This document shows, piece after piece, positions 972 through 45,242 of a DNA stretch of 47,547 nucleotides. Location of the stretch: the IMG/VR virus record IMGVR_UViG_3300046460_000298, positions 1 to 47,547 of that record; one strand, given 5' to 3'. A program made the translations under genes and the position numbers. Under the pieces are notes generated by a model. It had not been told where the DNA came from, searched no databases, and saw nothing but the letters and a program-made list of their open reading frames with translations. Every line of letters starts with the position of its first letter. Within the stretch, counting starts at the first letter, position 1. The stretch comes from a virus.

Positions 972-2159
972 TCAGGCGTCGATCGTGACCGGCAGGAACT
1001 CGACCGTCGAGTGCGCCAGCGTGATCTCTCGGCTCGGCAGGTGCCGGGCGTAGCGTTCCGTCGACCGCTTGTCCTTGTGCCTCAGCAGCTTGCCGACGTC
1101 GTCGAGCGTGAGGCCGTGCGACAGGCCCAGCGTCGCGAACGAATGCCTGAGGTCGTGCGGCCGGAGCCGCTTCATTCGGGCCGGATCGACGCCGTTGGCC
1201 GCGGCGATCTTCTTCGCGTCGGCCCAGGCGCGGTATAGCGTGCTCTTCGGCAGAACCTTGTCGCGGTCAAGGCCCATGAACACGTGCGGCCGGAGGCGCT
1301 CGCCATCACGCTGCCTGACCTTCTCGAGAACGTCGAGAGCGGCCCGGTTGAGCACGAGGTGGCCCTTCCCGGTCTTCGTCTTCTCCCAGTCGATCCTCCC
1401 GCGGTCCCAATCGACCCATGTCCACTCCAGCTCCCGGATCTCATCGCGACGGGTACCGGACAGGGCGAGAAGGCGAAGACATGCCGCGGCGTGGAATCGG
1501 TTCCGGTCGCGTCCGACCTGGTCGATGGCTGCCAGCAGGATTTCGAGTTCCCACGCTTCCAGATATTCCTCGTGGCTCTCCAGCTCGTGGAGCTCCGCCT
1601 TGGTGCAGGGGTTGCCGAGAACGTTCGACCGGATGCCCCATCTCAGCCCCTTCGAGAATGCCGCGCCCACGAATGCCACGGCCTTGTTCGCGGCGGCCGG
1701 AGTCTCGCGCATGTCGGCGAGCAGCCTGTCGATGTCCTGAGCCGCAACGTCGTCGACGAGCTTGTCTCCGAGGCGCGGAAGCACGTGGTTGTCGAGCAGG
1801 CGCCTGTAGTCCTTCAGCGTCGCCTCGGTGCGGCGTACGGCCACCCAGTCGGTCATGTACAGCTCGAACAGGTCACGGGCGCGGGGCTTCGCTGATCTCG
1901 CCTTCCTTGCCGGGGTTCGGCCGGCCGCGAGTTCGGCAAGGATGAAGGCCGCCTCGGCACGGGCCGCATCAGCTCCCCGCTCCGTCGCATCGCCCAGCGT
2001 CGCCTTGTATCCCTTGCGCTTGACGAACCACGACTTCCCGCCCGAGGCGCGCAGCCGCAGGCCGAAACCGTTGGTGTCGCTGTCCCAGAGGATCGTCTCG
2101 CCGGACGGCGGGCAAACCGCCTTCGCCACCACCTTGTCCGTCAGCTTCGCCTTCTTCAT
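972..2159 (-). CDS. int: Tyrosine recombinase / phage integrase
   Basis: 395 residues from ATG 2159 (GGGGA about 9 nt upstream). The N-terminus (KAKLTDKVV, then GFGLRLRASGGKSWF) is the DUF4102-type arm-binding region of P4-like integrases. The catalytic residues are visible in order: Arg in LSGTRRDEI, Lys in EKTKTGKG, HDLRH, RHKDKRS, and the tyrosine nucleophile in TERYARHL. It catalyses site-specific integration or excision. On a plasmid-like prophage it might instead resolve dimers, as Cre does for P1. No attP core was identified. The gene's 5' end overlaps the 3' end of the upstream HTH gene by about 190 bp. Confidence 0.9.
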   Translation of the reverse strand: MKKAKLTDKVVAKAVCPPSGETILWDSDTNGFGLRLRASGGKSWFVKRKGYKATLGDATERGADAARAEAAFILAELAAGRTPARKARSAKPRARDLFELYMTDWVAVRRTEATLKDYRRLLDNHVLPRLGDKLVDDVAAQDIDRLLADMRETPAAANKAVAFVGAAFSKGLRWGIRSNVLGNPCTKAELHELESHEEYLEAWELEILLAAIDQVGRDRNRFHAAACLRLLALSGTRRDEIRELEWTWVDWDRGRIDWEKTKTGKGHLVLNRAALDVLEKVRQRDGERLRPHVFMGLDRDKVLPKSTLYRAWADAKKIAAANGVDPARMKRLRPHDLRHSFATLGLSHGLTLDDVGKLLRHKDKRSTERYARHLPSREITLAHSTVEFLPVTIDA

Positions 2160-2796
2160 CTTCCATCGTCCCCAGATTATCGTCCCTATCATGGGCCGCC
2201 GGCGCGAGAGAAGCACACTCCGATGGAGCATCTGTTAAACTTGGGTACATGAGGCGCTGGCCTTTCCGAACCCAGGAGCGGCCGAGCCATGCCGTCCAGT
2301 CCCGATCGACGACCGTGACGATGTTGGTCAAGTTGCGTAGCCGCTGCTTCCGGCGCTCCCTGATCTCGTTCTTCATGATGCCGAGCGCGACCGCCTTCCT
2401 GATGGCCAGCCGTATTGTGGTCTCCCCTGCCCCGGAGAGGTCGACGATCTCCCGAAGCGAACGGACACATCGGCCGCGGCGGGCGCAGTCGATGGCGATG
2501 ACCGTCAGGACGGCCTGCTCGGCGGTCGTGAAGCGTTTCGCGAGGCTCGGGGGCATCAGGCCCCACGCCGCGGTCTCCCTTCGCCTCTCGCGCCATTTCT
2601 CGGGCGTTCCCGTACGCCTGCGTCGGGGTGCGCCCATGAAGCGGGCCTGACGGCGTCTGGTCTCGATGGCCTGCGACAGGGATGTCGCCAGCAGGTCGCC
2701 GAAGTGGCCGCGGCCGTGGGCGTTCCAGACGATGGATGCGATCCCGTCGAGCTGGTCGTACGAGGCCGTGGATATGCGGTTGAAGAGGTCTATCAT
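1969..2796 (-). CDS. Rhizobial plasmid-type HTH protein, candidate replication regulator or initiator
   Basis: 275 residues from ATG 2796, chosen for its strong AGGAG 5 nt upstream. Residues about 55-190 look like a family common on rhizobial plasmids: a basic segment (KWRERRRETAAWG), a helical domain (LAKRFTTAEQAVLTVIA), an HTH-like stretch (GAGETTIRLAIRKAVALG) and then NLTNIVTVVDRDWTAWLGR. The last 60 or so residues overlap the integrase start in another frame and look non-conserved. Position parallels repABC plasmids: partition pair, then antisense RNA, then this gene. It is not a canonical RepC (too short). A transcription regulator is the alternative. Confidence 0.6.
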   Translation of the reverse strand: MIDLFNRISTASYDQLDGIASIVWNAHGRGHFGDLLATSLSQAIETRRRQARFMGAPRRRRTGTPEKWRERRRETAAWGLMPPSLAKRFTTAEQAVLTVIAIDCARRGRCVRSLREIVDLSGAGETTIRLAIRKAVALGIMKNEIRERRKQRLRNLTNIVTVVDRDWTAWLGRSWVRKGQRLMYPSLTDAPSECASLAPAAHDRDDNLGTMEDEEGEADGQGGGEGGLPAVRRDDPLGQRHQRFRPAAARLGREVVVRQAQGIQGDAGRCDGAGS

Positions 2797-2847
2797 CTCG
2801 CTCCTATCAAGGCGAGCGACCACGATCAGAGACCGTGCGGAATCCGT

Positions 2848-2876
2848 TTGACAGGCCATTTGCGGCTTGCTAGGTT
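2848..2876 (+). promoter_or_regulatory. Antisense promoter, TTGACA-17-TAGGTT
   Basis: TTGACA at 2848-2853 and TAGGTT at 2871-2876 are separated by exactly 17 bp on the plus strand, opposite to the neighbouring genes. It is the best -35/-10 pair I saw in the window and points straight at the terminator at 2912-2950. Confidence 0.65.
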
Positions 2877-2882
2877 CCGGCC

Positions 2883-2950
2883 ACCACAGCGCGAAACCTT
2901 ATGACTTCCTGAAGCCCCTCGAGCCGCCAAGCTCAGGGGCTTTCGCTTTT
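2883..2950 (+). ncRNA. Candidate counter-transcribed (copy-control) RNA
   Basis: The predicted transcript starts about 7 nt after the -10 box and ends at the hairpin and T-tract, giving about 68 nt. It runs antisense to the leader of the HTH/replication gene starting at 2796 and lies between that gene and the parA operon. In repABC plasmids a ctRNA of similar size, position and orientation limits RepC synthesis. Function is by analogy only. Confidence 0.5.
2912..2950 (+). terminator. Intrinsic terminator of the antisense RNA
   Basis: Stem AAGCCCCT (2912-2919) with AGGGGCTT (2935-2942), an inner GAGC/GCTC stem and a CGCCAA loop, followed by TTTCGCTTTT. The T-rich side is on the plus strand only. 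Confidence 0.7.
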
Positions 2951-3042
2951 GTATGCCCTACATTGGTTGATCTCCGAATCACGAACGGCAGACGCCGCGC
3001 GGGGGCATGAGACCGACCGACAGACCACCTGTCAACCGCGCA

Positions 3043-3067
3043 CGAAGAAGGGGCCGTCTCCGGCCCC
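3043..3067 (-). terminator. Terminator after the partition operon
   Basis: A 7-bp GC stem (3050-3056 with 3061-3067, loop TCTC) is followed on the minus strand by TTCTTCG. It lies just past the repeat copy that follows the RHH gene. Confidence 0.5.
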
Positions 3068-3070
3068 TCG

Positions 3071-3102
3071 TGTCGTCATGTATGCATGTATGCGTGTCGT
3101 CA
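3071..3102. repeat. Dispersed GCATGCAT-type repeat, copy R1
   Basis: Contains TGTCGTCATG followed by TATGCATGTATGCGTG and GTCGTCA, and begins at the stop codon of the RHH gene. It is one of six loci sharing the TATGCATG(C/T)ATG and GTCG(A/T)CATG words. It flanks the par operon on its downstream side. Confidence 0.75.
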
Positions 3103-3402
3103 CTCAGTCGTGTCTGCATCGACCGACAGGGCCGGGTTGCCTTCCATCGTGAGATGCGTGTTGATCGCCGTCTTCAGGTAGCGATCGAGGGTCATGTCGG
3201 CCTGCAAGGCCAGCATCTTGAGCATGCGAGCCTCGTCCTTGGTCAGCCAGAGCTGGCAGGCCTTCTTGTCCATCCGCGAGGGGGCGCGAACCTGCTTCTT
3301 CTTTTCCAAGGCCGTCACCGCATCCCCAACGGAAGCGACGACACGAACCGGAATGGGAGCGCCGATGGCCGCGTCCAGAGCCTTCTTCTTCGAGACGACC
3401 AT
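3100..3402 (-). CDS. Small RHH-like centromere-binding partner of ParA
   Basis: 100 residues. The start ATG at 3402 overlaps the parA stop (TGATG), so the two are translationally coupled. The N-terminal 40 residues are basic and low in structure (SKKKALDAA, LEKKKQVRAPSR). The C-terminal part, LWLTKDEARMLKMLALQADM followed by TLDRYLKTAINTHL, has the beta-strand/helix/helix pattern of ribbon-helix-helix proteins. This matches the small ParB-type proteins of type Ib partition systems, which bind repeats near parA and stimulate its ATPase. GCATGCAT-type repeats lie on both sides of the operon. Confidence 0.7.
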   Translation of the reverse strand: MVVSKKKALDAAIGAPIPVRVVASVGDAVTALEKKKQVRAPSRMDKKACQLWLTKDEARMLKMLALQADMTLDRYLKTAINTHLTMEGNPALSVDADTTE

Positions 3403-4064
3403 CACTTCACCTCCAGACCGAGTGCGCGCATGGCGCCGTTCACGAGGCTGTTGAATTCCCTCGTGCCCTTGTCGGCCGGAGCCAGCTCTGCGATGTCGAG
3501 GCCGGAATCCATCGCATATCCGATGGCGACGCGGTTGCCGATCCGGCCGAGGCTGGAGAGGTCGTACCGCTTCTTGACGACGTCCGCGGCCTTCTGTGCG
3601 GCGAGCTTGCCGCTGAAGTGAGTGTGCGTCATCGTCATGACCGAACGGGCTTTCTGGATACCGCCGGGCACGAGCTTCAGGAGGTCGATGGTCGGGGCCA
3701 GTCCCTCGATGTCGGGACGGTTCGGGCGACATGGCACGATGATCAGATCGGCCGCGCGGGCGACAGCCGCCAGAGCCGCGGTCGAGTGAGGCGGCGTGTC
3801 GACGACGACGAAGTCGACGAGGGAGCCGTCCTTGATCTTCGCGAGGGCCTGATCGAACTGGGTGATCGGCATCTTCCTGACGGAGACCTCGACCGGGTGC
3901 TCGCCACGCAGCGCGGCCCAGGTCGTTGCGGTGGTGCCCTGCGGGTCGACGTCCACGAGCAGAACGTCGTGGCCGCGGCGCGAGAGGATGGTGGAAGTGA
4001 ATGCAGCGATGGTGCTCTTGGACACCCCGCCCTTGCCCGCCATGATGGCGATGACCTTGGTCAT
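3402..4064 (-). CDS. parA: ParA-family partition ATPase
   Basis: 220 residues from ATG 4064 (GGAG 8 nt upstream). Residues 1-16 hold the deviant Walker A box AGKGGVSKST, typical of ParA/Soj ATPases, followed by switch regions VDVDPQGTTAT and VVVDTPPHST. No N-terminal HTH is present, so it is the short type Ib form. It drives segregation of the prophage circle with the downstream RHH protein. The 5' region carries the TTTTGTCACCC element shared with abiE and a repeat copy (R2). Confidence 0.9.
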   Translation of the reverse strand: MTKVIAIMAGKGGVSKSTIAAFTSTILSRRGHDVLLVDVDPQGTTATTWAALRGEHPVEVSVRKMPITQFDQALAKIKDGSLVDFVVVDTPPHSTAALAAVARAADLIIVPCRPNRPDIEGLAPTIDLLKLVPGGIQKARSVMTMTHTHFSGKLAAQKAADVVKKRYDLSSLGRIGNRVAIGYAMDSGLDIAELAPADKGTREFNSLVNGAMRALGLEVK

Positions 4065-4107
4065 GTTGCTTTCTCCGGGTTGTCGGCTGGATGTCTTCAC
4101 TCACCCA

Positions 4108-4163
4108 TGCCGATGTGTATGCATGTATGCATGTCGACATGTCTCTATGCCGACTCGCATGCA
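4108..4163. repeat. Dispersed GCATGCAT-type repeat, copy R2, upstream of parA
   Basis: The core reads TATGCATGTATGCATG and then TCGACATGTC (4118-4143), with further ATGC and GCATGC words to 4163. Located 44-100 bp upstream of the parA start, the usual place for a type Ib centromere/operator. Confidence 0.8.
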
Positions 4164-4168
4164 GATAC

Positions 4169-4196
4169 TTTTGTCACCCTGTCGCGCTCTTGTCAA
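4169..4196 (-). promoter_or_regulatory. Candidate parA promoter with element shared with abiE
   Basis: Minus-strand TTGACA at 4196-4191 overlaps the methyltransferase stop codon. The downstream spacer carries GACAGGGTGACAAAA, identical over 15 bp to the abiE promoter (901-915). A shorter form, GGGTGACAAA, recurs near 42297-42308 before the gene at 41678-42274. Confidence 0.5.
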
Positions 4197-5677
4197 ACGC
4201 CGGCGGAAATCCGCCGATGCTCGCGGAGGAGGGAGGCCCCGATGAAGGCCATGTTCATCGTGCACATCGAGTTGCCCAGCGCGCGGTACCGGAGGCTGTC
4301 GGGAGCCTCCTTCTTCTTCCAGACGATGTCCGTCCAAGAATCCGGAAATCCCATCAATCGTTCGCATTCGACTGGCATCAGTCGGCGCACGACATAGCCG
4401 CCGGCGCGGTCGGCGATCACGGGCACGTGTTCGATGTCGATGTGCTTCGACGCACCCGAGGTCGTCATGAGCGTGCCGACGGTGTTTGGATGGACGATGC
4501 AGAAGCCAGCCTCGCCGCCGCCCATGCCGCTGCCACCCATGCGGGCCGTGCCGCAGGCCGAAGCCAGAAGGGTAGGGGCGATCTCCGGATGCACGACGCC
4601 GTGCACCTGTCCGGTCGAGGTCAGGGTGTACATCGGATCGCCTTCATCCGCGAAGCCCAGGGCCTGACCCTCGCCGCGTCGGCCGCCATTGAGGAGGGGA
4701 TGGACGACGCCGTGGTTCTTTCCGGCGATGAGCGTGTACATCGGATCGCCGTCCTCTCCGAAGCCGAGGCCCTGCTGGCTGGAGATGCATCCGGCTTGCT
4801 GGAAGGGGTGGACGATGGCCGGAGGAGACTTGCCCGCATGCGCGACGAGACACTGGGCGGTCTCCGGGTTCATCGTGTGCGAATACTGGCTGTCGAAGGG
4901 CAGGTAGGCCGTCAGCTCTCCAGAGCCTGCCTGAGCACGTCGGGGAGCTTCTTGCCCCGCCGCTGCGAGCGCGTCAGGACCCCATCCTTCGCCTGCCTGC
5001 TCAAAAAGTATTTTGCCGGGATCCGCGACGGGTCCAGTTCCAAGAGCGAAGACAGCATAGACTCGACGGCGGCGCTGGGGGACTCCCCAAAAACGGGAAT
5101 CACATGTTCTCCAAGCGGCTTCGCCTTCCGGTCCAGACACATGACCTGCGTTCGTCCATCCGGACCTTGGAGGCTGTAGAGGATGTTGTTCCCCGACTCC
5201 CGCTCCCAGAAGACATCCGAGGGGGTTGTCGGGGTGTCCGACGGCTCCATGCACGTTCTCCCAGATGATGTATTTCAAGTTGTTGACCTCGCGCATCTTC
5301 ATGGCGAGTTGCATGAAGGCGAGGGTCAGGTTGCCGCGATGGTCGCCGAACCCGCCACGCAGGCCGGCCACCGAAAATGCCTGGCAGGGTGACCCGCCTT
5401 CCAGCACGTCGACCTCACCGAGGGATTCGAGATCCTTCAGCGTGATCTGGGTCAGGTCGCCGAAGTTCGGTACGCCTTCGACGGGGATGTCCTTGTAGAG
5501 GGCGGGCCGGAAATCATGGCCATCCGGCAGGTAGCGCGGACGTCCGGCTCCGAGCCGCTGGTGAAGCACGGCTGCCGGAAACGCCGCAGGTTCGGCATAG
5601 GCCACGAACTCGTAGCCCTGTCGGATAAAAGCGACCGAAGCCGAGCTAATGCCGGAAAAAGTCGACAGCACTCTCAC
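4193..5677 (-). CDS. C5 cytosine DNA methyltransferase
   Basis: 494 residues. Starts at GTG 5677, overlapping the stop of the small upstream gene (GTGA). Conserved motifs in order: FSGI (I), GGSPCQAFS (IV, with the catalytic Cys), WENVHG (VI), GVPQRRRRV (VIII) and YRALGNSM (X). Between VIII and X lies a long target-recognition insert with two repeated units built on LGF.(E/D)DGDPMYTL. Probably an orphan phage methyltransferase protecting its DNA from host restriction, since no endonuclease gene is adjacent. A second open frame with its own ribosome site lies inside it at 4912-5250. Confidence 0.9.
   Translation of the reverse strand: MRVLSTFSGISSASVAFIRQGYEFVAYAEPAAFPAAVLHQRLGAGRPRYLPDGHDFRPALYKDIPVEGVPNFGDLTQITLKDLESLGEVDVLEGGSPCQAFSVAGLRGGFGDHRGNLTLAFMQLAMKMREVNNLKYIIWENVHGAVGHPDNPLGCLLGAGVGEQHPLQPPRSGWTNAGHVSGPEGEAAWRTCDSRFWGVPQRRRRVYAVFALGTGPVADPGKILFEQAGEGWGPDALAAAGQEAPRRAQAGSGELTAYLPFDSQYSHTMNPETAQCLVAHAGKSPPAIVHPFQQAGCISSQQGLGFGEDGDPMYTLIAGKNHGVVHPLLNGGRRGEGQALGFADEGDPMYTLTSTGQVHGVVHPEIAPTLLASACGTARMGGSGMGGGEAGFCIVHPNTVGTLMTTSGASKHIDIEHVPVIADRAGGYVVRRLMPVECERLMGFPDSWTDIVWKKKEAPDSLRYRALGNSMCTMNMAFIGASLLREHRRISAGV
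4912..5250 (-). CDS. Nested out-of-frame gene inside the methyltransferase
   Basis: 112 residues from ATG 5250, preceded by GGGAG at 7 nt, in a different frame from the surrounding methyltransferase. The sequence is not the Arg/Pro/Ala-rich type typical of shadow frames. It contains NNILYSLQGPDG and a basic C-terminal segment, KYFLSRQAKDGVLTRSQRRG then KKLPDVLRQALES. From memory this resembles a short LSPKAC-G-ILRRA domain found in phage methyltransferase loci. The two frames appear to be dual coding over about 339 bp. Function unknown. It could also be a chance open frame. Confidence 0.45.
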   Translation of the reverse strand: MEPSDTPTTPSDVFWERESGNNILYSLQGPDGRTQVMCLDRKAKPLGEHVIPVFGESPSAAVESMLSSLLELDPSRIPAKYFLSRQAKDGVLTRSQRRGKKLPDVLRQALES

Positions 5678-7018: not shown

Positions 7019-7131
7019 TGTCGCATGTGATGGATTCGAACCACCGACCTCCGGGTGACTGCGGCCGGCCGTGCGTTACGCGGCCAGCGTCAGATCCCCG
7101 GCGCTCTCTCCGGCTGAGCTACCATGCGACA
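7019..7131 (-). ncRNA. tRNA-like sequence with enlarged anticodon loop
   Basis: Read on the minus strand: a closing stem of 9 bp (7123-7131 with 7019-7027), TA, a D arm GCTC-AGCCGGAGA-GAGC, an anticodon stem CCGGG/CCCGG, a 5-nt variable loop AGGTC and a textbook T arm GGTGG-TTCGAAT-CCATC. The anticodon loop is about 41 nt instead of 7 and holds a GGCCG/CGGCC hairpin. This is either a tRNA with an insertion or a tRNA-derived decoy. A phage attachment remnant is also possible. No normal anticodon can be assigned. Confidence 0.5.
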
Positions 7132-9921: not shown

Positions 9922-10133
9922 CGAGGGCACTCCGGGCAGTGATCCCACGTGCGGACGTTCATCACGGCGATGACCACGTAGATAGTCGTCAGGAACAAGT
10001 AGGTCCAATCCCAGCCATAGACTGCCATGCGGCAGATCATCGCTACGGAGAGCAAGCCGTGCGCGATGGCCGACCAGAGGAGCCAGTCGTTTCGGGTATG
10101 TGTATGCATGCATTCATGTCGACATGTCGTCAT
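9918..10133 (-). CDS. Small membrane protein whose 5' end is made of the dispersed repeat
   Basis: 71 residues. ATG 10133 overlaps the stop of the XRE gene (ATGA), with AGGGG upstream. The first dozen residues (MTTCRHECMHTHT) are encoded by repeat copy R3. Then come two hydrophobic helices (DWLLWSAIAHGLLSVAMI, WTYLFLTTIYVVIAVM) and a Cys-containing tail, WDHCPECPR. A start at 10109 is possible but has no ribosome site. Function unknown. Confidence 0.55.
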   Translation of the reverse strand: MTTCRHECMHTHTRNDWLLWSAIAHGLLSVAMICRMAVYGWDWTYLFLTTIYVVIAVMNVRTWDHCPECPR

Positions 10134-10135
10134 GC
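10096..10135. repeat. Dispersed GCATGCAT-type repeat, copy R3
   Basis: Contains TATGCATGCATTCATG, TCGACATG and TCGTCATG in the same order as R2. Located at the junction of the XRE gene and the membrane-protein gene, overlapping the start of the latter. Confidence 0.75.
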
Positions 10136-10384
10136 CACCACCCCTGCACCCACGTCGTCGATCGAGGCGATCAGGGTGGACGGATGCACGCCGATGGCCG
10201 CCGCATAGCGGGCGAGATCCCACGCGCTGTAGAGGGCCTCGCCGTGCTCGAGGTAGCTGATCCGCTGCTTGGTCACGCCGATGGCGGCCGCGACCGCCGT
10301 CAGGCTGATCCCCGTGGCATGCCGCGCTGCCGCCAGTCTCAGACCCTGTTCCTGCCGGAAGGCCTTCTCTTCGTCGTTGATCAT
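10130..10384 (-). CDS. XRE-family (Cro/CI-like) regulator
   Basis: 84 residues from ATG 10384. A single HTH domain: LRLAAARHATGISLTAVAAA then IGVTKQRISYLEHGEA, i.e. helix 2/turn/helix 3 with the typical Q/R recognition residues, then DLARYAAAIGVHPSTLI. A small phage repressor or Cro-like protein binding operators in the early region. Upstream partner of the membrane protein at 9918-10133. Operators not proven. Confidence 0.8.
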   Translation of the reverse strand: MINDEEKAFRQEQGLRLAAARHATGISLTAVAAAIGVTKQRISYLEHGEALYSAWDLARYAAAIGVHPSTLIASIDDVGAGVVA

Positions 10385-15376: not shown

Positions 15377-15429
15377 GGCAGGTCTCCTGTGGTCAGAAGA
15401 TCCTGCACCCGCCGGCGGACTCGAACAAG

Positions 15430-15466
15430 ATGCATGCGTGTATGCATGCATGCATGTCGTCATGCA
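15430..15466. repeat. Dispersed GCATGCAT-type repeat, copy R4
   Basis: ATGCATGCGTGTATGCATGC, then ATGCATG and TCGTCATGCA. Begins at the stop codon of the DUF2793 fibre gene, in the same orientation and with the same GCATGACGACATG edge (minus strand) as R3. Confidence 0.8.
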
Positions 15467-28435: not shown

Positions 28436-28447
28436 CGGTTCCCCGGT

Positions 28448-29170: not shown

Positions 29171-30637
29171 TTAGATCGTGACGGCCTTGTAGACCCATGC
29201 ACGCCAGCGGACTTCGCCGCGGCCGCCGCCGCCGTTCGTCGTGGCGTTGCCGGAGACCCCCGCACCGCCGCCGCCGCCGGGGATGCCGCCGTTGCCGCCG
29301 ATTCCCGTGCCGCCGCTCGCCGCGCCGCCCGCGCCGCCCGTGCCGTAGCTCCAGAAGTCGTCGTCGAAGGCGTTGTTTCCGTTCGCGCTGGCCGTCGCAG
29401 GCCCGACGAACTTCGACTTGACGCGGCCATACGAGGCGCCGCCGCCGGCGATCGGAAACAACGTCGAGCATGCGCCTCCATGTCCGGGGCCGTCGTAGTT
29501 GTTGGCCTGGACGAACGCAGCCCACGAGCTCTGCAGCTTGCCCATGTCCGCGCCGACATAGCCCTGCATGGCGCGCATCGCCTCGGTCTGCGACGACTGC
29601 TCGGCCGCATTGTTTCCGCCGCGGATCGAGAAGGTGCTGGACTGCACCCATGCATCGGGAGCGCCGGAGTTGCAGAACTCGGAATATCCGCCGCCGTTGC
29701 CGGGCGCACCGCCCAGGCCGACGACGTAGGGGATGGTGTCAGGCAGCGCGGAGAGCGGGATGTCCAGGCGCACGGCCACGTCGCCGCCGAAACCGCCGAA
29801 GGTGTTCGTCGCACCCCACGCGCCGCCTGCACCACCCTGGATCGCCTGGACGTCGATAAAGATGAGGTCTTCTGAAACTCCGGCGAGATCGGGGTTGTCG
29901 GCAAGGATGAGAGCCTTGATCGCCGCCTTCGTCGTCGATCCGGACGTAGTGTACTTGTAGACGTTCTTGCCGCCGTTGACCTTCAGGTCGACGCGCTGGA
30001 CGAGCTTCGATGCGGCAAAGCCCGTGCCGGGGATGCGAACGGGCGTGCCGTCGGACGTCCGGGCGACGATGCTGTCGGTGCCAGACAGGAGCGCCTTTGC
30101 GGCGAAGTTGGCGGCATGGATGTCCGCGAGCTTCGCGGTCTTGGCGACCCCGCCGACGCGAACCAGATACTCGGCGTCCGTCGCAGAAGCGGCAGAGCCG
30201 GCCGCCGCGAGAGTCTGCTGTAGAAGACCCAGGGCCGTCGTCGACCGAAGGCCGTCCGCCGTCTGCAGGAGCAGGGATTCGGATCCGTCCAGCGTGGACG
30301 CGGCGGCCGCGGCCACCATCATGAGAGCCTGGACGGCTGCCGTTCGAAGACCCAGAGCCGTGCGGACGTTGACCTTGTCTGTCGGTGCGGCGGAACCGGC
30401 AGTGGCGAACTCGAGAGCGGCCGCCTGCGCGACGGTCATTCGCCGGACTCCGGAAGGGGTGGTGACGAGTACCTCTTCCGTTCCGTCCACCGTCGACAGG
30501 GCTGGGGCCTCCATCTGGTGGAGCTGCTGCACGTCCGCACGGCACGTCCCGTCCGCGGTCTCGACGACCAGCATGTCGATGGGAGCGACGGTGTCCGCCG
30601 GAGTGAGGTCTCCGATCTTCTTCGGTGCTAGTGCCAT
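29171..30637 (-). CDS. Glycine-rich fibre-like protein, paralogue 1
   Basis: 488 residues. The N-terminus (KKIGDLTPADTVAPIDMLVV) shares a pattern with the next gene. The middle has Ala-rich trimer-like repeats (QALMMVAAAAASTLDGSESL). The C-terminal half is Gly-rich (FGGFGGDVAVRL, GGAPGNGGGYSEFC) and ends in a collagen-like GG block and RGEVRWRAWVYKA. Polyglycine-II fibre tips and such Gly-rich pyrrolysine-free folds are used for receptor binding. About half or more of residues match the gene at 30654-32105. Confidence 0.75.
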   Translation of the reverse strand: MALAPKKIGDLTPADTVAPIDMLVVETADGTCRADVQQLHQMEAPALSTVDGTEEVLVTTPSGVRRMTVAQAAALEFATAGSAAPTDKVNVRTALGLRTAAVQALMMVAAAAASTLDGSESLLLQTADGLRSTTALGLLQQTLAAAGSAASATDAEYLVRVGGVAKTAKLADIHAANFAAKALLSGTDSIVARTSDGTPVRIPGTGFAASKLVQRVDLKVNGGKNVYKYTTSGSTTKAAIKALILADNPDLAGVSEDLIFIDVQAIQGGAGGAWGATNTFGGFGGDVAVRLDIPLSALPDTIPYVVGLGGAPGNGGGYSEFCNSGAPDAWVQSSTFSIRGGNNAAEQSSQTEAMRAMQGYVGADMGKLQSSWAAFVQANNYDGPGHGGACSTLFPIAGGGASYGRVKSKFVGPATASANGNNAFDDDFWSYGTGGAGGAASGGTGIGGNGGIPGGGGGAGVSGNATTNGGGGRGEVRWRAWVYKAVTI

Positions 30638-30653
30638 TCGTTCAGTCCTTTGA

Positions 30654-32105
30654 TCAGAGTGCCATTTTCAGAATGTAAGCTCGCCAGCGAACCTCGCCGC
30701 GTCCGCCAGCCCCGGTCGAGGTGGCGTTGCCATCGCGTCCGCCGCCTCCCCCGCCGCCGGGGACGCCACCGTTGCCGCCCGTGCCAGCCGGGTTACCTGC
30801 GGCGCCCGTGCCGTAGCTCCAGAAGTCGTCGTCCTTGGCGTCGAAGCCCGCCTGCCCCTGCGTCGTCGGCCCGCCCACCTTCGACCTGACACGTCCGAAT
30901 GAGGAACCCCCTCCCGAGTATGGAGACACGCTGCTGGATGCCGCACCGCCGTGACCCGGCCCGGTGTACGAGTTGGGAGCGATCGTCGTGGCGTAGGCGT
31001 TGGCCGTCAGCGTCGTGTCCGGCCCGGCGTATCCCTGCCCGCCGCGCATCGCCTCGACATAGCTCGTATGTTCGGCCTTGGTGTTCCCACCGCGTGCCGA
31101 GAACAGGCTGGACTGCACCCATGCATCGGGAGCGCCGGAGTTGCAGAATTCGGAATAGCCGCCGCCGTTGCCGGGCGAGCCGCCGATGCCGACGGCGTAG
31201 GGAACGGTTTCCGACAGGGCAGAGAGCGGGATCCCCGACTTGTACGCCACATGCCCGCCGAAGCCACCGAACACTCCGCTGGTACCCCAAGCACCGCCAG
31301 AGCCTCCCTGAATCGCCTGGACATCGAGAAAGATGAGGGAATCGGGAACACCTGCGAGGTCTGGGTTGTCCGCGAGGATGAGGTTCCGGATCGCCGTCTT
31401 GGTGGTTGAACCGCTCGCCGTGTACTTGAAGTAGGTCTTGCCGCCGTTGACCTTGAGCCTGACCTTCTGGACGTTCTTCGCCGCGAGGAAGCCGGAGCCG
31501 GGGATGCGGACGGGCGTGCCGTCGGACTTCAGGCCGATGATGCTGTCGTCGGCCGAGAGCTTCGCCTTCGCCGCGAAGTCGGCGGCATGGATGTCCGCGA
31601 CCTTCGCGGCCTTGGCGACCCCGCCGACGCGAACCAGATACTCGGCTCCCGTCGCGGATGCGGCGGAGCCGGCCGCCACAAGGGCCTGCTGCAGAAGGGC
31701 CAGTGCGGTCGTCGACCGGAGGGTGCCGGACTTGCCGACGAGGACTGCCTCGACCCCGGTGATGGTCTCCGCGGCCGTGGCGGCGATCATCAGAAGGGTC
31801 CCGATGGCGATCTCCCTAAACCCCGCGGATGTGTGAATCTTGACCACGTCGTCGACGTCGACGGCTGCGGCCGCTTCGGAGTATGGCTCGGCGAGGTCTG
31901 CCGAAAGGATTCGATGGACTCCGTCCGGCGTGTCGGCGAGCAGGCCTTCCTGACCAGTCGCGGACGGAAGGGATGCGGCCGGCATTAGGTGTAGCTCCTC
32001 GGCCGTCGCCCAGGCCGTGCCAGCGTCAGTCCCGACTACGAACTGGTCGCCGCTCTCGACCGAGGCCGCCGCCGGCAGGACTGGGATTTTCTTCGGCGAC
32101 GCCAT
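30654..32105 (-). CDS. Glycine-rich fibre-like protein, paralogue 2
   Basis: 483 residues. Tandem paralogue of the preceding-coordinate gene: shared segments include ATGAEYLVRVGGVAKAAKVA, NGGGYSEFCNSGAPDAWVQS and DDDFWSYGTGAAG, with the same Gly-rich end GGVPGGGGGGGRDGN. Differences are concentrated in the Gly-rich loops and the Ala-rich N-terminal repeats, as expected for receptor-binding diversity. Probably a virion fibre or appendage. Confidence 0.75.
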   Translation of the reverse strand: MASPKKIPVLPAAASVESGDQFVVGTDAGTAWATAEELHLMPAASLPSATGQEGLLADTPDGVHRILSADLAEPYSEAAAAVDVDDVVKIHTSAGFREIAIGTLLMIAATAAETITGVEAVLVGKSGTLRSTTALALLQQALVAAGSAASATGAEYLVRVGGVAKAAKVADIHAADFAAKAKLSADDSIIGLKSDGTPVRIPGSGFLAAKNVQKVRLKVNGGKTYFKYTASGSTTKTAIRNLILADNPDLAGVPDSLIFLDVQAIQGGSGGAWGTSGVFGGFGGHVAYKSGIPLSALSETVPYAVGIGGSPGNGGGYSEFCNSGAPDAWVQSSLFSARGGNTKAEHTSYVEAMRGGQGYAGPDTTLTANAYATTIAPNSYTGPGHGGAASSSVSPYSGGGSSFGRVRSKVGGPTTQGQAGFDAKDDDFWSYGTGAAGNPAGTGGNGGVPGGGGGGGRDGNATSTGAGGRGEVRWRAYILKMAL

Positions 32106-35855: not shown

Positions 35856-35958
35856 GCATGTCGACGTGTATGCATGTATGCACGTATGCAGTCATGCATG
35901 ACGACATGTCGCCAATCATGCATGCAAGCATGTCGTCATGACTGCATGCATGCATGTC
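35856..35958. repeat. Dispersed GCATGCAT-type repeat, copy R5 (largest, paired)
   Basis: A 103-bp cluster of the same words filling the gap between portal and protease genes. It contains a perfect inverted repeat, CATGACGACATG (35897-35908) and CATGTCGTCATG (35929-35940), spaced by 20 bp, with TATGCATG-rich flanks on both sides. So it looks like two repeat units facing each other. Confidence 0.8.
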
Positions 35959-42274: not shown

Positions 42275-42377
42275 AAGGATTCGTTCCGCCACATCTGGAT
42301 TTGTCACCCAGTTTGAAGCGCCGGATACAGGTTGCAACGCCGACAGTACGTAGCAACCCCTGACGGGCAGGAGCAGG

Positions 42378-42416
42378 CAAAAAGAAAGCCGCCGGATCCC
42401 GAAGGACACGGCGGCT
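42378..42416 (-). terminator. Intrinsic terminator after 42504-42863 gene
   Basis: Minus strand: AGCCGCC (42416-42410) and GGCGGCT (42393-42387), followed by TTCTTTTTG. Confidence 0.8.
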
Positions 42417-45005: not shown

Positions 45006-45051
45006 GCATGCAAGCAGACATGCCGACATGCATGCATGTATGCGTCCCGAC
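45006..45051. repeat. Dispersed GCATGCAT-type repeat, copy R6
   Basis: GCATGCAAGCAGACATG, CCGACATGCATGCATG, TATGCGTCCCGAC. Lies beside the candidate origin. Confidence 0.75.
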
Positions 45052-45242
45052 ACCTCGGAACACCTCCCCTGAAGGGGCCGGAAGGTCCTTCGGACGGCAT
45101 TCGACGACCACAGGGGAGCTACCTCCCCTGCCCCTGGAAGGCACCGACCGTAGCCGACGGCCGACGCCGCGGACAAGGCGACGGGAACCTCCGGCTCCGA
45201 GGACGACACCCTCCGGACACGGAAGGGAACCCTCCCACATTG

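Follow-up and report, generated by a model that had tools for sequence, protein, structure and literature searches.

What copies a temperate phage that carries its own partition genes, and how is that copying kept in check? The question is raised by a 47,547-base virus record, which we analysed whole and call the window. It comes from a tailed phage whose genes encode terminase, portal, head protease, major head protein, tape measure and tail proteins. Immediately upstream of a tyrosine integrase (about 972-2153, minus strand) sits a minus-strand module of parA, an RHH gene and an HTH gene, which overlaps the integrase start. A first-pass annotation had called this a compact repABC-like module, and its three open reading frames (220, 100 and 275 residues) are present as it gave them (Table 1). 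Structural genes occur together with replication and partition genes, the combination by which phage-plasmids are recognised, and we infer that the module serves a temperate phage as its plasmid replicon and that the phage would be maintained outside the chromosome. The phage also encodes an integrase, so it could exist as an integrated prophage. We did not locate a replication origin, and single-protein queries with ParA, the HTH protein and TerL found no relatives of this phage in viral_contigs. Our preferred explanation, which we think quite likely, is that a countertranscript controls the synthesis of a replication initiator and that this control is joined to type Ib partition.

Table 1. 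Features of the module and of the repeat arrays in the window.
Feature	Coordinates	Strand	Evidence
HTH gene, probable replication initiator	1969..2796	-	phrog_15967 1e-39; O-like initiator 1e-4
HTH mRNA leader, three predicted hairpins	2797..3099	-	leader folds
Antisense RNA promoter, TTGACA-17-TAGGTT	2848..2876	+	sequence; near-fixed TTGAC-loop distance in relatives
Predicted antisense (countertranscript) RNA, ~68 nt	2883..2950	+	promoter and terminator positions; covariance-model match 2912-2953
Terminator and putative kissing hairpin, loop CGCCAA (2925-2930)	2912..2943	+	covariation in relatives; window fold
Array A, CATG/TATG repeats between RHH and HTH genes	3069..3103		
RHH gene, 100 aa, probable centromere-binding protein	3100..3402	-	Pfam Antitox_RHH 0.007, below curated cut-off
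parA, 220-aa ParA/MinD-family ATPase, ATG 4064	3402..4064	-	Pfam AAA_31 5.9e-18; PHROG ParA-like 1.3e-35
Array B, parA promoter, 8-bp period, probable operator/centromere	4106..4163		
Dispersed array C	10095..10136		
Dispersed array D	15428..15466		
Dispersed array E, flanked by the portal and head-maturation-protease genes	35857..35958		
Dispersed array F	45019..45052		

Judging from its sequence relatives, the HTH protein is probably a replication initiator. All 12 family members that we tested match both phrog_15967 and phrog_391 ("replication initiation O-like"), and the match to phrog_15967 spans the N-terminal helical domain and the wHTH core, as seen in the alignment and in the AlphaFold2 model. 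This model, with a mean pLDDT of 77, shows three helices in the N-terminal domain and, besides them, a winged helix. Its top Foldseek matches in the PDB are weak and include MarR proteins, 5kbj ("Structure of Rep-DNA complex") and 4pt7 ("Structure of initiator"), the last two of which we take to be RepA_N-type initiators. Among viral models it matched A0A0A8IK91 and a POI1126 protein, and Pfam gave only weak wHTH matches for the family. The N-terminal alignment with relatives backs the start at ATG 2796 and rules out ATG 2859. The integrase N-terminus, read out of frame, accounts for the final ~65 of the 275 residues, and the conserved part is therefore roughly residues 1-200 (about 2190-2796).

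The family is largely one of plasmids. It occurs on about 85 PLSDB plasmids, mostly from Methylobacterium and other Rhizobiales, of which 62 were typed as non-mobilizable, as well as in genomes and in at least three phages (the window phage, AmM-1 and POI1126). In most loci with enough flanking sequence, ParA is encoded within ~3.4 kb of the HTH gene, and the order and orientation of parA, small gene and HTH gene recur in AmM-1, pMRAD08, pSS37A-Re-6 and pMSC49d. Aurantimonas phage AmM-1 shares this order with the window, along with an antisense hairpin (loop CGGCAA in AmM-1), but its HTH protein is only ~28-32% identical and its small gene has no Pfam match. Three Methylobacterium-group plasmids (L007, L008 and L014) carry the replicon plus terminase, portal or protease-type phage genes; these are likely to be phage-plasmid remnants or satellites.

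Ochrobactrum phage POI1126 was found experimentally to be a plasmid prophage, with two partition ORFs and no replication gene identified (PMC5492332). We find that gp39 and gp38 are RepA and RepB (RepB PF07506, 1.7e-18) and that gp36, annotated as a "transcriptional regulator," belongs to the HTH family (HMM 2.3e-39). It occupies the repC slot behind RepA-RepB and has its own antisense-strand terminator (AACCGGCCTTCGTGCCGGTTTTTTTATG), and a search with PF03428 found no RepC in POI1126. Between repB and gp36, just after repB and on the antisense strand, there is a match to ctRNA_p42d (36 bits, E 4.6e-5, below the Rfam cut-off of 50), which is a vestige of the repABC ctRNA. Most simply, an HTH-family initiator would have replaced RepC, so that POI1126 resembles an initiator exchange within a repABC operon. 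Like the window, POI1126 is a tailed phage with an integrase gene and has the HTH family downstream of its partition genes; unlike the window, it retains a genuine RepA-RepB pair and the ctRNA relic.

Could the HTH protein instead act, under antisense control, as a transcriptional regulator, whether of lysogeny, of the integrase or of partition, while another, unseen factor replicates the phage? Its winged helix matches GntR/MarR, its gene abuts the integrase, and the POI1126 member bears a regulator's annotation. Also, pAU20rrn has a separate Rep_3 initiator, which was already reported (PMC10645730), in addition to an HTH family member, and the HTH protein therefore need not be the only initiator on its replicon. 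But pAU20rrn is the exception. The 6,272-bp plasmid pF encodes a family member and a CGCCAA antisense hairpin, and we found no RepC, Rep_3, RPA or other recognisable initiator on it; nor did we recognise another initiator on pSS37A-Re-6 (14 kb). Furthermore, most of the relatives shown are plasmids in which no integrase gene lies next to the family member, every member tested matches replication-initiation PHROGs, and a member holds the repC slot in POI1126. We consider this reading of the HTH protein unlikely.

As for whether the window module is a true but reduced repABC operon, the arrangement is indeed the same. In repABC systems (p42d, pRmeGR4a, pTiR10; ctRNA/RepE), as in the window, ParA, a centromere-binder, an antisense RNA opposite the initiator leader and the initiator lie in one orientation. 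The repABC antisense RNA is ~50-60 nt long and has its own terminator at the end (PMC6090056, PMC10194956). The antisense RNA of the window has the repABC position and direction, between the genes for centromere-binder and initiator, and our covariance model (see below) marginally matches a genuine repABC ctRNA (E 0.013). The functional analogy drawn in the first-pass annotation is well supported by the conserved antisense RNA and by the plasmid-borne HTH family with its replication-initiation PHROG matches. Its view that an RHH protein stands in place of RepB and an HTH protein in place of RepC also stands, as both are absent: RepC (PF03428) was found in none of the 11 records searched, including the window and POI1126, and RepB (PF07506) is missing from the window module, which has the 100-residue RHH protein instead. 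When the HTH protein was compared to RepC with hhalign, no homology was detectable (probability 0.8%), and the winged-helix protein appears unrelated. ParA is of the short type without an N-terminal HTH, there is no parS near the module (GTTNNNNGCNNNNAAC occurs only at 28446 and 28477), the hairpin loop is different, and the window has no ctRNA_p42d (RF00489). Because RepB and RepC are absent, ParA is short, parS is not nearby and RepC homology is lacking, this is not a repABC operon, and we think it very improbable that the module is a reduced member of that family.

The antisense RNA is predicted from signals that had been proposed for the plus strand, all of which we find in place: TTGACA (2848-2853), a 17-nt spacer, TAGGTT (2871-2876) and, further on, a hairpin at 2912-2943 that is followed by TTTCGCTTTT. 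The ~68-nt RNA that would result, antisense to the HTH leader, is backed by conservation of its structure in relatives and by a match to a held-out covariance model. Rfam has no family for it, ctRNA_p42d included; weak matches to PVT1 and to the rnk leader were rejected as chance.

We gathered HTH relatives from plasmids, genomes and viral contigs, which gave 40 distinct leaders. Terminators on the antisense strand are present in 27 of the 39 testable leaders, versus 8.3 expected from dinucleotide shuffles; on the sense strand there are 5 versus 2.6 expected. Hairpins with a CGCCAA, CGGCAA, TTGGCG or TTGCCG loop occur in 28 of 40 leaders, as compared to 1.3 in mononucleotide shuffles and 6.7% of control windows. 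In nearly all of the group A relatives, TTGAC precedes the loop centre by ~80-88 nt. Across 23 distinct hairpins, 98.3% of cells are paired, and there are 100 two-sided changes (shuffles: mean 30, maximum 43). Unanchored MAFFT/RNAalifold alignments of the ctRNA recovered hardly any structure, if any, since they put the two loop registers out of line; an anchored, ungapped set (A7) removed this problem. The broad alignment A1 was unsuitable as a seed for pattern scans. In the set of 13 ungapped leaders, without the window, a 13-bp stem has 99.4% of cells paired, with 44 compensatory cells versus 11.8 when shuffled and two-sided changes in 10 of the 13 pairs; sliding by one column drops the pairing to 53-60%.

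A covariance model trained on those 13 leaders, with the window excluded, ranks 2912-2953 (plus strand) first in the 47.5 kb (28.8 bits, E 1e-4, though the tool's E-values are rough). The same model matches the antisense hairpins of 14 held-out leaders (L012, L061, L010, L032, L021, L066, L100, L026, L028, L067, L009, L016, L074 and L075). We regard the comparative test as decisive for a conserved antisense RNA unit, and the comparative data as a whole strongly support the predicted RNA. That the plus-strand hairpin is a mere terminator or a chance hairpin with no regulatory RNA is hardly credible: a simple promoter/terminator scan of the window left the unit unflagged and unscored, but the promoter spacing, the loop motif and the covariation are conserved in distant relatives. 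A second match of the model in the window, at 42377-42416 (minus strand, 25.3 bits), lies near another TTTGTCACCC motif at 42301 and is probably an ordinary terminator.

The canonical single hairpin is missing from about one leader in four. Most of these exceptions, judged by eye, show two hairpins instead, a CGCCAA hairpin and a separate terminator after it (L006, L008, L014, L018, L022, L031, L064 and pF), and not every two-hairpin member keeps the exact CGCCAA. In seven leaders (L007, L010, L011, L026, L029, L032 and L100), a second leader hairpin nearer to the start codon has a loop identical to that of the first (TTGGCG/TTGGCG, TTGCCG/TTGCCG or CGGCAA/CGGCAA). This suggests that the countertranscript could also touch the second hairpin; no such same-loop hairpin is obvious in the window. 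There, folding predicts three leader hairpins: the target with its UUGGCG loop, one over the antisense promoter, and one at 2797-2816 that contains the Shine-Dalgarno sequence and stands just ahead of ATG 2796. Pairing of the ribosome-binding site exceeds that of controls only weakly across the family (p=0.005), and for the window the value is low (0.44). Given this weak pairing, sequestration of that site as the sole control in the window is unconvincing.

Under the preferred explanation, synthesis of the HTH initiator would be rate-limiting, and the countertranscript (2883-2950) would be made constitutively. Its CGCCAA loop would kiss the UUGGCG loop of the HTH mRNA leader and then form a full duplex, which would keep the leader in a fold that is unfavourable for translation (or for read-through). 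More copies would mean more countertranscript and less initiation. The RNAI-repZ control of IncI-alpha/IncB/IncK plasmids, whose leader has a UUGGCG loop according to the title of Asano et al. 1998 (via PMC10724649), is similar in that an antisense hairpin acts against a leader with this loop. It differs in its initiator; also, we found no repY/pseudoknot arrangement, and in leaders with two hairpins of this motif the loops are identical rather than complementary.

RHH proteins such as ParG and omega are known centromere-binders. In the window, a short ParA is encoded next to a small RHH gene that overlaps the parA stop, which is the pattern of type Ib partition, with the qualification that the RHH match is below the curated cut-off. 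Partner genes at the same position in L009, L010 and L014 match Antitox_RHH at 1e-8 to 1e-12. For the RHH protein of the window, we found no sequence match to a solved structure.

Six intergenic arrays of repeats that contain CATG and are spaced by 4 and 8 bp probably serve as centromere or operator sites for this protein, dispersed over the phage genome. With at most one mismatch, TGTATGCATG has 18 matches versus 0.65 expected, and CATGTCGNCATG has 9 versus 0.05; all of them fall within the six arrays. Several relatives have short repeated tetramer arrays of the TAGC or ACGT type upstream of parA. ParA and the RHH protein would segregate the low-copy prophage, with the RHH protein acting on the 8-bp-period array in the parA promoter as both autorepressor and centromere-binder and occupying the arrays at five other intergenic places as well.

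The SopB sites of N15 are likewise dispersed over a phage genome. N15 is similar to the window in having several centromere-type sites (four IR sites for SopB, PMC7205306), but where N15 has palindromic SopB sites, the window has arrays of 8-bp-period repeats and an RHH gene beside them. The mycobacteriophages RedRock and Miko, which are extrachromosomal prophages with par genes and a RepA-like or RNA-based origin (PMC7157519), also combine partition with replication functions. Their partition is of the parABS type, their RepA is unrelated, and their cassette replaces the integrase.

We did not find this type of replicon described in the open-access papers that we searched, which are a limited set. 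Many small plasmids of related bacteria have the kit, which has apparently gone undescribed as a system for replication; the probable initiator has so far been annotated as hypothetical or as a regulator on ~85 plasmids and at least three phages. With the replicon and its countertranscript named, it would become clear how such replicons are copied, including the plasmid prophage POI1126. Incompatibility would be predictable from the loop sequence, and vectors for engineering methylotrophs would follow. We see about an even chance that this is a widespread, undescribed class of alphaproteobacterial replicon, with an O-like winged-helix initiator and a CGCCAA-loop countertranscript, common to small plasmids and phage-plasmids and combined with either ParA/RHH or RepAB partition, and that in this phage the RHH protein also binds the dispersed arrays and may keep lytic genes of the prophage silent.

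Other features of the window deserve mention. A 20-bp near-palindrome (GGTAACAAAATTTTGTCACC) at 891-910 lies just upstream of an HTH-like ORF (187-873), and its half-site (ACAGGGTGACAAAA) recurs in the parA promoter at 4172-4181; possibly these are operators of the phage repressor that link lysogeny with partition. Directly upstream of the module, 4193-5677 (minus strand) encodes a C5 cytosine DNA methylase domain (Pfam 2e-26), which matches in three stretches and overlaps another coding-like frame at 4912-5250. In a tRNA-like gene at 7021-7128 (minus strand, Rfam 43 bits), the anticodon arm contains an unusually large insertion, and ARAGORN's intron mode calls it tRNA-Val(aac) with an 18-nt intron; an intron-bearing tRNA-Tyr is called at 10163-10271 of L016, a plasmid with the same replicon. 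At the contig end, 46789-47547 (minus strand) encodes a homologue of the AbiEii-family nucleotidyltransferase toxins (Pfam 9.7e-24), whose partner was not seen. Finally, 29171-32105 holds two adjacent paralogous genes (repeats D1, D4 and D10, which are 77-80% identical and 1471-1480 bp apart).
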